Shown here piece after piece: positions 27,937 through 49,224 of a DNA stretch of 64,000 nt (within the stretch, counting starts at the first letter, position 1; every line of letters begins with the position of its first letter). The stretch is from NCBI GenBank assembly GCA_017164015.1, contig CP071065.1, positions 1,181,409-1,245,408 on the forward strand, in the 5' to 3' direction. The notes beneath the pieces are model-generated. The model was given only the letters and a program-made list of their open reading frames with translations. It did no database searches and had not been told where the DNA came from. Position numbers and translations under genes: made by a program. The DNA is from Nostoc sp. UHCC 0702. Lineage in GTDB: Bacteria; Cyanobacteriota; Cyanobacteriia; Cyanobacteriales; Nostocaceae.

Positions 27937-28539
27937 ATGCTACTCAAACTGAAAAAACTCTACACAGCAATTCAGACATATAAAAACTCAGAAAACATTG
28001 GAGATTTTGCTATTCTCAAAGCTGACGCATTGGGTGCAAAGGTAGATCCGCTAGTAGCGGCAAAACTGCAACAGGTAGTGGGATATTACCCCAAAATTGA
28101 TTTAGAACAATTAAGCCATTATCCTCAAGACACATTTGGACGGTAATATGCTCATCACATGCAAACAAACCACCTGCAATCGCTTAACATCAGTCCGAAA
28201 TTAGAGGATGTTGCTAAACGTAATGTGTTTGCTCTGCGGTACATTGTCACCCATGACATTTTTCATGTTTTACTCGGCTTTGATACTAGCTACGCTGGAG
28301 AAATCGGTGTCCTTGCCTTTGCTGCTGAGCAAAATTACAGCAAATCACTAAAAATTAGTCTTTGGTTTGCTAAGGTACTTTATCCTATCCTAGCTCCTAG
28401 ACAAATTCAAGAGATTTCCGCCAACCTACAAAAAGGTCAAAAACTAGGTAAAAAAGCTGATTTTTTATTAGGCTACCGCTTTGAAGAACACTGGCAAGAA
28501 CCTATTAATGCAGTGAGAAAATGTTTAAAAATACTATAA
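27937..28539 (+). pseudogene. Coq4-like gene interrupted by an in-frame TAA
   Basis: The reading frame runs from ATG 27937 to TAA at 28144-28146 (69 codons) and continues in the same frame to the natural stop at 28537-28539. The second part contains THDIFHVLLGF (HDxxH) and AGEIGVLAFAAEQ, the Coq4 signature. The stop sits between DTFGR and YAHHM, exactly where the intact paralog at 14520-15230 reads NTLGYAYADHM, so a single codon is hit and no bases are lost. The downstream part could restart at ATG 28159, yielding 126 residues with the signature motif. I call it a nonsense pseudogene, with low-level readthrough or restart possible. Confidence 0.8.
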
Positions 28540-28632: not shown

Positions 28633-30015
28633 ATGATTACCCACCAAAAGAATTCTTTAAATAACGTCAATTTTCAACTTCCAAATGGTTCGCAAACAAT
28701 ACCACTATTTCAAACATTGCGGGCAATTTTCCAGCCCATTGAGTTACTAGAAAGCTCTCATGAACGCTACGGGGACATTTTTATGTCCAATTTTAGTGTC
28801 TTACCTCCTCAACTGATTATTAGTAGTCCCCAAGCCATTCAGGAAATTTTCACGGCTGATTCCAAGCTGTTTGATTCTGGTTCGGGAAACTCACTTCTTC
28901 AACCTTTGGTAGGGGCAAATTCAGTGATATTGCTAGATGGCGATCGCCACTCGCAACAGCGTAAACTTTTGATGCCAACTTTTCATGGTGAACGGATGCG
29001 GGCTTACGGTCAGGCCATTTGTGAAATTACACAGCAGGCGATTAGTCAGTGGACTATTGGGCAAGAATTTATCGCCCGTCCCCAAATGCAAAATATTTCT
29101 TTACAAGTGATTTTAAAAACTGTTTTTGGTTTAAAACAAGGAGAACGTTACCAACAAATCAAGCAAGTTTTAATTGCTATGTTGGATACTTTTAATTCTC
29201 CTTGGAAATCTAGCCTACTCTTTTTCAAATTCCTCCAAAAAGATTTAGGTGCTTGGAGTCCTTGGGGAAATTATATCCGGCAAAGACAGCGACTTGATGA
29301 ACTAGTTTACCAAGAAATTCACGAGCGTCGCACTCAAGGGGAATTGGCAGGTGATGATATCCTCAGCTTGTTAATGTCATCTCGTGATGAAAAAGGTGAA
29401 CCTATGACTGATGTTGAGTTGCGCGATGAGTTAATGACTATGCTATTTGCTGGGCATGAAACTACAGCGATCGCTCTTGCTTGGGCTTTATATTGGATTC
29501 ACTATATTCCAGAAGTCCGCGAAAAACTTCTGCAAGAACTTAACTCTATTGATGTCAAGAATGCTAATCCCACAACAATTGCTCAACTGCCTTATTTGAA
29601 TGCTGTCTGTTCTGAAACTTTGCGAATTTATCCAATTGCTTTCTTTAGTTTGCCGCGAATTTTGCGAGATGATATGCAATTGTTCGGCTACTATTTACCA
29701 AAAGGGATGTATTTATCTGTTTGCATTTATTTGACTCACCATCGCCCCGATATCTACCCTGAACCTAAGCAGTTTAGACCAGAACGCTTTTTAGAACGTC
29801 AATTTTCTCCTTATGAATTTTTACCTTTCGGGGGTGGTAATCGCCGCTGTATTGGTATGGCGTTTGCTATGTTTGAAATGAAGTTAGTTCTGGCGACTAT
29901 TTTATCGCGTTACTCACTACAACTTTTGGAGTCTCGTCCGCTTTTACCTGTTCGTCGTGGTTTGGTATTTACACCAGCCGGTGGTGTGCATTTGATGGTG
30001 AAAGAGAAATATTAG
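28633..30015 (+). CDS. Cytochrome P450, CYP110-like
   Basis: The 460-residue soluble P450 has the I-helix AGHETT, the K-helix ETLR, and the heme loop FGGGNRRCIG with the thiolate Cys406. The N-terminal proline region (LPNGSQTIPLFQTLRAIFQP) and overall length fit cyanobacterial CYP110-type enzymes, several of which oxidise fatty acids or terpenes. The true substrate is unknown. GAGGATAACT precedes the ATG. It follows the broken Coq4-like gene by 93 bp. Confidence 0.93.
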   Translation: MITHQKNSLNNVNFQLPNGSQTIPLFQTLRAIFQPIELLESSHERYGDIFMSNFSVLPPQLIISSPQAIQEIFTADSKLFDSGSGNSLLQPLVGANSVILLDGDRHSQQRKLLMPTFHGERMRAYGQAICEITQQAISQWTIGQEFIARPQMQNISLQVILKTVFGLKQGERYQQIKQVLIAMLDTFNSPWKSSLLFFKFLQKDLGAWSPWGNYIRQRQRLDELVYQEIHERRTQGELAGDDILSLLMSSRDEKGEPMTDVELRDELMTMLFAGHETTAIALAWALYWIHYIPEVREKLLQELNSIDVKNANPTTIAQLPYLNAVCSETLRIYPIAFFSLPRILRDDMQLFGYYLPKGMYLSVCIYLTHHRPDIYPEPKQFRPERFLERQFSPYEFLPFGGGNRRCIGMAFAMFEMKLVLATILSRYSLQLLESRPLLPVRRGLVFTPAGGVHLMVKEKY

Positions 30016-44071: not shown

Positions 44072-45673
44072 TCATCTCTGTTTAATAGGAATCTCAATCA
44101 CAAACTCTGTACCTTTTCCTGGTGCAGAGATACAATTGATTTTTCCCTTGTGTATATCTACGATAATCTGATAACTAATAGATAAACCCAAGCCAGTACC
44201 CTTACCTACAGGTTTAGTAGTAAAAAATGGGTCAAACAATCTAGTCTGAACTTTTTTACTTATTCCCGGGCCATTATCTTTAATACTAATAATTATGCGC
44301 TCTTGATCTTTAATTTGGGTGTAGATAATAATAGAATTGGGGGGTTTTTCGATCTTTTTTTCCAAACACTCTATTTCCTGTTGGCGTAAAGCATCGATAG
44401 CGTTATTTAGGATATTCATAAATACCTGATTTAATCCTCCTGCATAACATTCTACAAGAGGCAAATTACCATAGTCTTTAATAATTGAAATTTCCTCCTG
44501 TTCATACTTACCTTTGAGACGATGCTGCAAAATTGATAGTGTACTATTAATTCCTTCATGAATATTAACAGGTTTTATTTCTGCCTCATCAAGACGCGAG
44601 AAGTTCCGCAAAGCTAGCACAATCTCGCGGATACGTTCAGCCCCAACTGTTATTGAGCATAAGATTTTTGGTAGATCATCAATAATAAAATCTAATTCAA
44701 TTTCATCACTCAGACTAGTTATTTCCGAGTTGTAATTAGAATCTTGTTGTTTATATAGATTAATTAAACTTAGTAATTGCTGAGTATATCCTCTCACGTG
44801 GACTAGATTACCATAAATGAAATTAACTGGATTATTAATTTCATGAGCAACACCAGCCACTAGCTGACCTAATGAGGACATTTTTTCAGTTTGAATAAGT
44901 TGTACTTGAGTGTGTTGCAATTTTTTTAATGTCTTTTTTAACTGAAGATTTTTCTGTTTTAACTTTGCTGTTCTCTCTGCAACTTGTATTTCCAACTGAG
45001 AATTCGTTTCTTTTAAAGCAGCTTGAGCAATTTGTTTAGCTTTGAAGTATTCCTGCAATAAATGTAATACTAAAAACCATGCTGTAACGAGTATTGCTAA
45101 AGCTATAATAGATTCTAAAATTGTCCAAATTATTTGTTGACGATATTCAGCAACTTTTTGCTGCAAATGAAATGAAATCTTACGGTTCCTCTTAGCAACA
45201 CCATCAGCATAAATACGTTTTTGAGTTTCGTATTCGTGGCTGTATAATAATAGTTGCGCTGTCTTTTTTTGATTTTTCTTCACTAAATCAAAAGATTGAT
45301 ATTCCATTGTCACTAAACGCTTGTTAGCAGCATCAATTTTTTTGGCATCTTCATTTTCATATGCTTGAGGAGCTAGTTTAATAGATTCTTTAATAGCTAA
45401 ATTGAGTTGCGGTTCAAATTGGCGATAACGTTGTTCCCAAATCAGATTACCTGTAGCAGCATTCATACGGGCTGACATAGTTAATATTTCATCAAAATAG
45501 GTAATTTTATCGCTAAGCTTTTGTACTTGAAATTCATGTGTAGTAATTCTATTAAAATTAGAATATGCTTGATAGTTCAGCAGAATTTGAGTAATAAACA
45601 ATAATAATGTCAGTAGTATATTTGCAGTTACTAGTTGATAAGGAAAAAACCTAAATTTATAAATAAAGTGCAT
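44072..45673 (-). CDS. Membrane sensor histidine kinase
   Basis: From ATG 45673 the protein has 533 residues; the frame up to 45721 begins with TTG and is unlikely. TM helices lie near 10-30 and 165-190, bracketing a helical extracytoplasmic domain of about 135 residues. A coiled-coil (QIAQAALKETNSQLEIQVAERTAKLKQ in parts) leads to the dimerisation helix with the phospho-His in GVAHEINNPVNF. The HATPase domain includes NILNNAIDAL, IKDNGPGI and GKGTGLGLSIS. The ligand is unknown. It converges with raf1. Confidence 0.92.
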   Translation of the reverse strand: MHFIYKFRFFPYQLVTANILLTLLLFITQILLNYQAYSNFNRITTHEFQVQKLSDKITYFDEILTMSARMNAATGNLIWEQRYRQFEPQLNLAIKESIKLAPQAYENEDAKKIDAANKRLVTMEYQSFDLVKKNQKKTAQLLLYSHEYETQKRIYADGVAKRNRKISFHLQQKVAEYRQQIIWTILESIIALAILVTAWFLVLHLLQEYFKAKQIAQAALKETNSQLEIQVAERTAKLKQKNLQLKKTLKKLQHTQVQLIQTEKMSSLGQLVAGVAHEINNPVNFIYGNLVHVRGYTQQLLSLINLYKQQDSNYNSEITSLSDEIELDFIIDDLPKILCSITVGAERIREIVLALRNFSRLDEAEIKPVNIHEGINSTLSILQHRLKGKYEQEEISIIKDYGNLPLVECYAGGLNQVFMNILNNAIDALRQQEIECLEKKIEKPPNSIIIYTQIKDQERIIISIKDNGPGISKKVQTRLFDPFFTTKPVGKGTGLGLSISYQIIVDIHKGKINCISAPGKGTEFVIEIPIKQR

Positions 45674-45963
45674 TTTTAATAGTATTTTATATACAGTAGT
45701 TTTTGTTGGTAGAAAGTACAAAATCTACAGGTTTTGAGCCAGGAGGTAGGAGGTAGAAAGCAAAGTTTTCATCTATGATTTTGAGTCTTGTGTTTTGTAC
45801 CTCATTTACTTGCAAACTGCTGTATTAAATTTAGTTTTACCAATTCTGTATAAGATTGTGCTTGATTTACATAGGGACAATTCATGAATTACCCCTCTAG
45901 ATTGTTGTCTTGTGTAATTCAAGGACTCTTCATACAGAACTGGGATTACAATTCACTAAAGAC

Positions 45964-46150
45964 CAATACGGTTCAGTTAGAGTCAAAATTTGTAAATTGC
46001 GTAGGTTGGGGCAGCCCTGCAAAGAGCGCGGTTAAGCGACAGACGCGCGCAAGTGGCGTTTGAGGAATGAAACCCAACATTTTCACAACTTTGTTGGGTA
46101 ACGCTTACGCTCTACCCAACCTACAATTATCCTTAACTGAATCGTATTGA
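45964..46150. mobile_element. MITE with CAATACGGTTCAGTTA ends and a perfect 9-bp target duplication
   Basis: The left end CAATACGGTTCAGTTAGAG is mirrored by the complement of the right end, TCAATACGATTCAGTTAAGG. The 9-mer ACTAAAGAC stands on both sides (45955-45963 and 46151-46159). Inside is a nested GTAGGTTGGG...CCCAACCTAC palindrome. The right end is translated as the C-terminus of the adjacent Coq4-like gene. A longer relative is at 47046-47425 and a lone end at 37557. Confidence 0.9.
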
Positions 46151-46653
46151 ACTAAAGACTGTCGTAGTAGTTTTATTTCATTAATATCAATTCCCAATAA
46201 TTCACGAATAGTTTTTATAGGTTGATCGTGATAATTGTCAAAATTAACCTCATTTATTTGTTTAGTTTTAATTTTTCTACCATAGCTAAATCCTAAGTCA
46301 AAATTGAGGCACTCTAATCTTGAAAAGTTAAAAGGATATGGATATATAAATTTTGCAAAAAATTTATATATTAATAAATGTAGTTTATTAGTCTTTAAGT
46401 CATTACCCATTGTAAATCCAAGTACAAAAGCTTCTTCTTGAGGAGAAGTATCTTGATCTAAAAGGATGTGAATATAATCATGAGGAGTCAAACTAATTTT
46501 TCCAGGTAAAGCCAAGGGACTATTAGGATTCTCTAATAACCAAACTACAAAAGAAACTTGTGGCTCAAGTAAACCACATGATAATGCATGGGCTTCTTTT
46601 AAATTCATATGGGCTACATCGAGTTGAGAATTTGTAACTAATTCAAAAGCCAT
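46105..46653 (-). CDS. Divergent Coq4-like protein with MITE-derived C-terminus
   Basis: From ATG 46653 (GAGAGG 6 bases upstream; ATG 46674 lacks a site) the protein has 182 residues. TPHDYIHILLDQD gives HDxxH and QEEAFVLGFTMGND the downstream Glu, a weak but recognisable Coq4-like signature. The N-terminal part (MNLKEAHALSCGLLEP) is unlike the other two paralogs. The last 14 residues (QYDSVKDNCRLGRA) come from the inserted MITE. Removing the element and one target copy restores a frame ending in NCNPSSV and a stop. The family call is moderate and the function unknown. Confidence 0.65.
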   Translation of the reverse strand: MAFELVTNSQLDVAHMNLKEAHALSCGLLEPQVSFVVWLLENPNSPLALPGKISLTPHDYIHILLDQDTSPQEEAFVLGFTMGNDLKTNKLHLLIYKFFAKFIYPYPFNFSRLECLNFDLGFSYGRKIKTKQINEVNFDNYHDQPIKTIRELLGIDINEIKLLRQSLVQYDSVKDNCRLGRA

Positions 46654-47045
46654 TTGTATCCTCTCAAATATCATGTCAAGTAGATTTATCAGATTTTCTA
46701 AAACTAATAAGAAAATCTGAATTCAAATTATTTTTTTGTTATTCTCATCATTCAAATATACAAATATGCAGTTAGTTGCCGTTATTTGTATACAGAATAA
46801 CAACAGAAGCAATAGACTAATTTATTAATATTTGTTTTTTACTTATTTGTCTATATAGATGTAGAAAAATTGTTTTTATTTTTATAAAGATTATACTTAA
46901 AATTGTTTTTGATAAAGTCTCAGTATTTTTACGAATTAAAAATTTTGGAATTTATTAATAACTTTAAAAAAGCTCATTTTATATAAAAAATAATTTATAA
47001 TTAGCTGCAATTACTTCAGCATTTTCAGAAATTTTGTCTTTAATG
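46654..47045. other. Very AT-rich gene-free stretch
   Basis: About 390 bp with long A/T tracts upstream of the Coq4-like gene. No ORF, RNA or box is assignable. Confidence 0.4.
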
Positions 47046-47425
47046 TAATACGGTTCAGTTAAGGCTAAAACTCTTGTGAAAGTCAATTTTTTAATCAACT
47101 GCCAAAGACGCATAGATACGAAGTGGCTTCTCGCAGGGTAGGACTTAAAGAGAAGGAATAAATGTTTCAGGACTTATGCAACTGGCACACATATTTTCTG
47201 AAATGGCAGTCAAGAGGAGCCAGCGCGTTGCGGAGGTTCCCTCCGTTGTAGCAACTGGCGTTCAATAGTCAAGGGTCAAAAATCAAAGTTTTTTGGACTT
47301 TTGAAAGCCAGGTAGTTCAAGTCAGGAAACCCGCCAACACGACTGGCTCCTTTTGACCCTTGACAACCCAAACGAAAAAAATATGACAATGTGCGTAAGT
47401 CCTATGTTTAACTGAACTGTATTGA
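47046..47425. mobile_element. Larger member of the GGTTCAGTTA MITE family
   Basis: The ends TAATACGGTTCAGTTAAGG and, on the complement, TCAATACAGTTCAGTTAAAC match the element at 45964. Flanking 9-mers TCTTTAATG and TATTTAATG agree at 8 of 9 positions, in keeping with the 9-bp duplication there. A second element (47169-47403) is nested inside. No ORF. Confidence 0.75.
47169..47403. mobile_element. AGGACTTA-ended element nested in the larger MITE
   Basis: The left end AGGACTTATGCAACTGGCAC is mirrored by the complement of the right end, AGGACTTACGCACATTGTC, followed in both by an ATATTTT tract. Inside are GTCAAGGGTCAAAA repeats in inverted orientation. No transposase. Confidence 0.7.
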
Positions 47426-47442
47426 TATTTAATGAATCAGTA

Positions 47443-49224
47443 CTATCCAGCATTACTGCATCGGTAAAGCTGATAGGGAACACCTATGCGATAGTACTGT
47501 TTAGGATCTATGGTGCAACTAATTTGCCCAGCAAGGGCTACTTGTGGCGGATAGTCCCGTTTTCTCAATCCAGGAGCAACTATCCATAAATTCATCTGAG
47601 ATGTTCTTGGTGCAGGTATTTCAGAAAACTTTTTCCAGAAAGCAGATAAATCAGGAGATTTCTGTAAAATAACAAAATTATCCAAGTTAATAGCAGAATT
47701 TAAACCCGTATATTTATCAGTGGTATAGTTAATTTTTAATTTTTGATTTTGCGAAAAGTTGCTATGAAGGTTTCCCTCTGTAGCAAACTTTTCAAAACGA
47801 ATTTTGAATTCCTCTACAAGGGGCTGACTTCTAAGTTGTTCTAATGCCAAGGCAAAACTCAATCCCAATGCTACATCCTGATAACTGCTATATGCTACCA
47901 CCAGCGTCAGCGGTACAGAAGGTTCTAAATTCATGTTTTGGGCAACTTGCTCAGGTTGGAAAGGTTTTTGAAAGACTAGGTTAGAAGCTACAAAAATAGA
48001 ACTAATAAAGCCAATAAGTATAAATTTGAATGATGACTGATGACTTTTGCTAATACTGGCTGCTAAAAGGGCACAAAAGCTGGGATAGTAAACAAAGCTG
48101 TAGCGGGGAACTACGGTAATATCTTTACCTAATAAATAGACTATGGCAAAAAATTGTAGTAATACAAAAATAGTAAAACTTAAAAGCGTTAATGTTGCTA
48201 AATTAGTTGTATGTTGTAACCATAAAAACTTTAAACCTTTGAATATTTGATATCCTGCCCAAATAGCAAAAATCAACATTAAAAAACCACAGATAGCTGT
48301 TATTAACCAAGGCTGATTTTCTACGGGTAGAGCAATCACCATTAAAACCCAGCTAAGAAGAGTTTGATAGATGGGTGCGATGTGATTGGGAGAGGGTAAC
48401 CAATTGGTTTCAGACCGTTGAAAATGACTGAATATAATTAGTAACCAGGGAATAAAACTAATTACAACACCACTGGTAGAAATAATTAAAGCAAGCCAGA
48501 TTTGACGTTTGTTAAGTATTTTTGTCTTACCCCAGTACATCAATATAAGTAGTGTGGCGATTTCAGCAATGAAAGCTAGAGTAAAAAAGTAATGAACATA
48601 TAAACCTATACTGTTAGTAATTGCCCATAAAACCCAAACCCAAAATCTAAGTCGCGATCGCTCAAAAATATCCCGCTGAATTTGCATTAGTCCCAATAAC
48701 GCTAAAGTTATAAGTAGCATAGGCATGGTATAATGCCGTGCTTCTTGGGAAAGGTAAACAGCAAAGGGGGAAACGGCCATGAAAAATGCTGCAATGATTC
48801 CAGAACCTCTAGAAAAAGCAATACGATTGACACCATAAATTGCCGCGATCGCAGCTACACCAAACAAAGCTGGTAGCGATCGCAATTTCGTCACCCACTC
48901 CGCCCCTAAAGGAGTCATTAGCCCCAACCAACTATACATTCCGCAAAAAAATAGCGGCGGATGTGTAGACTGAGTAGCAATGTTTTCGGCAATTTGATTG
49001 CAACTAACTCCCGATTTAAATGTAAAAATTTCTTGTATACGCTCAAGAGAAAACACCAAATTCAAAGGCAAATCATGATAACTTTTACCCAAACTGAAAA
49101 TGGCAGTAATCACCTCATCCATCCAGAGGGGTTTTAAGTCTAAATGCCAAAAGCGCAAAACAGCACCAAGTGCCATCGCTCCAGCTAAACTTAGATAATG
49201 TAGAGTAAGTCTTTGATTTGTCAT
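47443..49224 (-). CDS. GT39/ArnT-like membrane glycosyltransferase
   Basis: The 593-residue protein has about ten to twelve TM helices and the catalytic Asp-Glu in LRFWHLDLKPLWMDEVIT (residues ~24-41) of polyprenyl-phosphate-dependent GT-C glycosyltransferases. THPPLFFCGMYSWL and LSQEARHYTMP are further typical loops. A C-terminal soluble domain follows. It likely transfers a sugar from a lipid carrier on the periplasmic face; donor and acceptor are unknown. The gene is monocistronic and divergent from the helicase gene. Confidence 0.85.
   Translation of the reverse strand: MTNQRLTLHYLSLAGAMALGAVLRFWHLDLKPLWMDEVITAIFSLGKSYHDLPLNLVFSLERIQEIFTFKSGVSCNQIAENIATQSTHPPLFFCGMYSWLGLMTPLGAEWVTKLRSLPALFGVAAIAAIYGVNRIAFSRGSGIIAAFFMAVSPFAVYLSQEARHYTMPMLLITLALLGLMQIQRDIFERSRLRFWVWVLWAITNSIGLYVHYFFTLAFIAEIATLLILMYWGKTKILNKRQIWLALIISTSGVVISFIPWLLIIFSHFQRSETNWLPSPNHIAPIYQTLLSWVLMVIALPVENQPWLITAICGFLMLIFAIWAGYQIFKGLKFLWLQHTTNLATLTLLSFTIFVLLQFFAIVYLLGKDITVVPRYSFVYYPSFCALLAASISKSHQSSFKFILIGFISSIFVASNLVFQKPFQPEQVAQNMNLEPSVPLTLVVAYSSYQDVALGLSFALALEQLRSQPLVEEFKIRFEKFATEGNLHSNFSQNQKLKINYTTDKYTGLNSAINLDNFVILQKSPDLSAFWKKFSEIPAPRTSQMNLWIVAPGLRKRDYPPQVALAGQISCTIDPKQYYRIGVPYQLYRCSNAG

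Follow-up and report, generated by a model that had tools for sequence, protein, structure and literature searches.

How did a gene of Nostoc come to end inside a short repeated element, and what did its protein end with before? The gene lies in the window, by which we mean the whole 64,000-nucleotide stretch of DNA that was analysed, and its last codons fall within the repeat that we call element C (Table 1). According to the original prediction, a single MITE insertion had remodelled the protein, and excising the element together with one copy of its target duplication would restore the earlier C-terminus.

Table 1. Coordinates of the gene, the repeats around its 3' end and the two full-length insertion sequences (window positions unless a locus is named)
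Feature	Position	Strand	Basis or remark
Histidine kinase gene, downstream of gene	44072..45721	-	HATPase_c and HisKA; adjacent in relatives
Element A, third MITE-like dispersed repeat, TACAGTAGTTT..AAACTGCTGTA	45692..45824	.	repeat searches, excision
Element B, second MITE-like dispersed repeat	45838..45945	.	inverted ends 45840-45851/45932-45943, divergent copies, fold
Target duplication, copy 1 (CACTAAAGAC)	45954..45963	.	10-bp register 9/10
Element C, IS4-family MITE, 186 bp	45964..46149	.	paired ends, dispersed family, RNA fold
Terminal inverted repeat, outer end CAATACGG	45964..45979	+	also at both ends of L061 and L062
Other terminal inverted repeat	46134..46149	-	one mismatch
Gene, 189 codons, uncharacterised family, sub-threshold Coq4 match	46105..46674	-	ORF, orthologs
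Last 14 codons and stop of gene, within element C	46105..46149	-	ORF, excision frames
Target duplication, copy 2 (AACTAAAGAC)	46150..46159	.	flank comparison
Element D, second copy of IS4-MITE family, 379 bp	47046..47424	.	upstream of gene
Full-length IS4 copy	L061 216-1702		transposase frameshift
Full-length IS4 copy	L062 257-1742		in-frame stop after codon 301

Results

The present tail of the gene and its orthologs

As had been proposed, element C encodes the last 14 residues of the protein: the ORF ends QYDSVKDNCRLGRA-stop within it. Comparison with orthologs points to the ATG of codon 8 as a possible start. The frame had also been described as Coq4-like, a description that we did not retain. 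The gene scored 11.6 bits against Pfam PF05019 (Coq4), below the gathering cut-off of 22.9, and among four orthologs scanned (three as the matched part only) two fell below the cut-off and two gave no match. Because the match is sub-threshold and equally weak or missing in orthologs, we do not call the gene a Coq4. A structure prediction from three sequences was uninformative, with a mean pLDDT of 36.8. Elsewhere in the window, a 126-codon ORF at 28159-28539 is weakly similar to the gene (31%, E 6.6e-4); it adjoins an ORF at 28633-30015 that resembles a cytochrome P450 in its motifs.

Matches to the gene (E <= 0.001) were found in 55 of 217 Nostocaceae-family genomes. Strong matches (E below 1e-30) occurred in 31 genomes besides this one, 29 of which yielded loci; with two more from a scan of further genome contigs (59 and 61%), apparently repeats of two of the 29, these make up the 31 ortholog loci that we compared. 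Beyond residue ~172 the orthologs either end at once or carry tails that vary in length and sequence. The original prediction had named relatives sharing the present C-terminus without similarity to the element as the observation that would tell against it; we looked for them by eye, and a tail like QYDSVKDNCRLGRA or NCNPSSV was present in none of the 31 loci. A close strain with the empty site was not found, the second of two genomes of the genus being without a match to the gene and the nearest ortholog being 65% identical. Sequence comparison places the tail outside the conserved core, in a part that varies among orthologs. The change of C-terminus that had been claimed is real; with the tail beyond the conserved core and variable, any functional remodelling would be hypothetical.

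Element C and its target duplication

Element C is short (186 bp when measured flush with its inverted ends, not 187 bp as first given) and has no transposase-sized ORF. Its ends, CAATACGGTTCAGTTA / TAACTGAATCGTATTG, are complementary at 15 of 16 positions (94%), with CAATACGGTTCAGTTA exact at one end and one mismatch at the other. At least 34 matches to the element, many of them partial, were found in the 8.59-Mb genome (E <= 0.001; 40 of 68 candidates scored), and the closest copies among the matches listed had identities of 91% (over 183 nt) and 96% (over 157 nt). The paired ends, the repeat family and the flanks together bear out the view of element C as a MITE with a target duplication.

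The length of that duplication had to be revised. What had been taken for a perfect 9-bp duplication, the direct repeat ACTAAAGAC at 45955-45963 and 46151-46159, consists of the nine agreeing positions of a duplication that is 10 bp long and carries one mismatch. In the 10-bp register the flanks of element C agree at 9 of 10 positions, and in the 8-, 9-, 11- and 12-bp registers they agree at 3 at most; the chance of at least 9 matches in 10 for one flank pair is ~6e-5 under a simple model. From this genome we tabulated 24 copies whose two ends pair; remnants with a single end were left out, as were two short end pairs, at L061 (75 bp) and L087 (51 bp). The 10-bp flanks matched at 10/10 in nine of the 24 copies; 14 copies, these nine included, had at least 9 matches, and 17 had at least 8. 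The remaining seven, among them the full-length insertion sequence L061, had fewer than 8. A 9-bp register taken directly at the element ends was also tried on this table; we rejected it, since the best of the 24 copies matched at only 5/9. Judged from element C alone, an element of 187 bp with a 9-bp duplication is a possible reading; we prefer the 10-bp register because most copies of the family fit 10.

The parent insertion sequence and its spread

Two full-length insertion sequences of this genome, L062 (1486 bp) and L061 (1487 bp), have ends exactly those of the MITE family, and their frames match Nterm_IS4 and DDE_Tnp_1 (Pfam) and transpos_IS4_1 (NCBIfam). The YREK signature is a mark of the IS4 family. 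The original prediction had suggested a search for a transposase acting in trans on such ends, and the class does exist: it is the IS4 family, with the same ends. An intact close transposase was not found in this genome, L061 and L062 both being broken and five other matches being 24-30% identical, and for this reason the MITE family may now be stranded here.

The transposase was matched in 59 of the 217 Nostocaceae-family genomes, this one included (E <= 1e-60). Thirty loci were returned, one of them this genome's own, and among the 29 from relatives paired ends lay 1000-1800 bp apart in 25 and both ends were exact in 21. Open frames of 408-414 codons were present in the six relatives' insertion sequences that were measured. 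MITE-like DNA was found in at least 44 of the 217 genomes, again including this one (E <= 1e-20; best three candidates per genome), and in the 11 relatives' MITE loci that were examined the ends were paired in every case, with no more than 4 mismatches per end, and the flanks agreed at 8-10 of 10 positions. The target duplication of element C (9/10) is of the parent's length; the parent's own is perfect (10/10) at L062 and at 16 of the relatives' 29 loci, and absent at L061 (4/10). From these comparisons of sequence, we identify element C as a MITE derived from an insertion sequence of the IS4 family. Element D, of the same family, has one mismatch in each end and 10-bp flanks that match at 8/10.

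The idea that this family tends to terminate genes was considered and rejected. Twenty other tabulated copies, neither in the window nor full-length insertion sequences, were examined for ORFs with at least 150 nt outside the element, and none of the 20 ends an ORF of at least 70 codons; three such ORFs begin in the element and one spans it. The 11 copies in relatives gave one case, at L213, in which an ORF of 81 codons, itself of doubtful meaning, stops inside the element. Wolk et al. 2010 reportedly dealt with Anabaena insertion sequences and ORFs.

A probably older repeat beneath the excised end

When element C and one duplicate are removed, 182 codons remain that end SLVNCNPSSV-stop, whichever duplicate is kept; the mismatch between the duplicates only swaps one Val codon for another. 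The frame that excision had been said to restore is thus confirmed. Its end is not the ancestral terminus, because codons 179-182 and the stop (PSSV-stop) map to 45930-45944, inside repeat B and supplied by it. Copies of B in the genome are divergent: among the matches listed, the four aligning over almost their whole length are ~66-75% identical. From divergence alone, which is greater for B, B appears to have entered before C, and element C is probably the younger of the two. Removal of B as well as C leaves a frame of 179 codons ending SLVNCKN, a result that depends on the bounds chosen for B. Repeat A represents a third family, separate from C and B. A and B are less sharply bounded than C.

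These repeats lie between the gene and the kinase gene. The kinase is downstream on the same strand in 18 ortholog loci (L103-L120); in the stretch examined around the other 11 genome loci, seven had no kinase match and four had a kinase that was not downstream on the same strand. Relatives share the kinase start at 45673, the ATG of codon 17. With codon 171 and the kinase reference point as its limits, the spacer is 34-58 nt in 17 of the 18 relatives with an adjacent kinase, the value of 34 nt being that of L114, whose alignment ran past its stop. In the window it is 482 nt, and it falls to 286, 178 and 45 nt as C, B and A are removed in turn. On this comparison, three MITE-like elements, each from a different family, appear to have entered the spacer. 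An Rfam scan of 45500-47500 gave no match.

The exception among the 18 relatives is L109, with a spacer of 356 nt, which is apparently the same sequence as L139 of Nostoc sp. WHI. There a 307-bp element of another family lies at the gene end (L139 4549-4855, also in L109), and the protein takes its last 11 residues (TADFKLIKYTS) and its stop from that element. The start of this element resembles A (72% over 57 nt), and without the element the L109 spacer is 49 nt (356 - 307). No clear duplications were established for A, B or the L139 element.

Discussion

The reading that we favour, and consider very probably correct, is that the insertion of an IS4-family MITE supplied the tail of the gene in a near-neutral swap, and that the tail it displaced had itself come partly from repeat B. 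Element C, a non-autonomous derivative of an IS4-family insertion sequence, would have landed in the last codons of the gene. On the minus strand the reading frame crosses one duplicate and continues in the inverted repeat, from which come 14 residues and a TAA stop. The comparison with exonisation made in the original prediction is a poor one, since nothing is spliced and the frame simply reads into the element as far as a stop. Before the insertion, the last four residues and the stop would have lain in the end of repeat B, and the family's own end would have been a different one. The tail beyond the conserved core presumably tolerates such insertions, and the simplest view would be a near-neutral exchange; a similar event in another Nostoc points to tails past the core as sites where insertions are tolerated.

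Other explanations account for part of these observations. If a single insertion had replaced an ancestral SLVNCNPSSV terminus and remodelled the protein in a meaningful way, the excised frame should end as it does, but its PSSV-stop lies inside repeat B, the SLVNCNPSSV tail was seen by eye in 0 of 31 ortholog loci and the tails past residue ~172 differ in both length and sequence, so that we regard this account as improbable. Somewhat better placed, though still unlikely, is the idea that the insertions were kept for a role at the RNA level, with hairpins of C and B parting the gene from the kinase in processing, stability or termination. The folds of C and B are far above those of shuffled sequences (z -5.2 and -4.6), and the 34-58 nt that separate gene and kinase in 17 of 18 relatives are in keeping with it. 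Against it, a strong fold is expected of any element with inverted repeats, element A folds no better than shuffles (z -0.46) and no terminator-like site was seen in the three elements. The presence of the same end sequences on both sides of the gene also brought up a composite transposon, formed by C and D, that had carried the gene to this site. We rejected this candidate, which is almost certainly wrong: C and D have separate duplications (9/10 and 8/10), and gene and kinase stand in the same order as in relatives.

A broader proposal goes beyond the near-neutral swap. The 3' end of the gene could be a site of recurring tail turnover, where three unrelated MITE-like families have entered in the window's lineage, B and then C have supplied the tail, and another insertion has done so in the lineage of L109/L139. 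We put this forward tentatively, as a possibility with the balance somewhat against it. If it were true, the present tails of these orthologs would be captured element sequences that had succeeded one another, and selection may have kept some of them. The locus provides a well-documented bacterial protein end written by mobile DNA. It also shows that taking out the latest insertion may leave an end other than the ancestral one, as here, where the exposed end came partly from an apparently older insert.

Among known systems, IS4-derived MITEs share with element C the IS-identical ends, the 10-bp duplication, the short length without a transposase and the many copies, and we found no feature that distinguishes element C from them. 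In Coxiella burnetii, as given in excerpts of the study describing them, QMITE1 and QMITE2 lie at the 3' ends of functional genes and give the last residues and the stop (Table 2 there, with pntAA as an example), and tolerance at C-termini is discussed (PMC5896051). In the excerpted account QMITEs are like element C in being MITEs that supply last residues and a stop; unlike it, they belong to another family and host and hit several genes, whereas here none of the 20 other copies ends an ORF of at least 70 codons. Excerpts of a review treat in-frame fusions, Rickettsia elements and Anabaena MITEs (PMC10969869). As described there, the Rickettsia palindromic elements are, like element C, small and read in frame in proteins, but they carry a conserved peptide into many genes, whereas here the tail of one gene is concerned; Nezha and other cyanobacterial MITEs are likewise MITEs of Nostoc/Anabaena-type genomes (PMC10969869). 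MITE-supplied C-termini are, to judge from these excerpts, already published, and the case described here is a clean added example. What it adds is a stacked history of insertions and a parallel event in another Nostoc.
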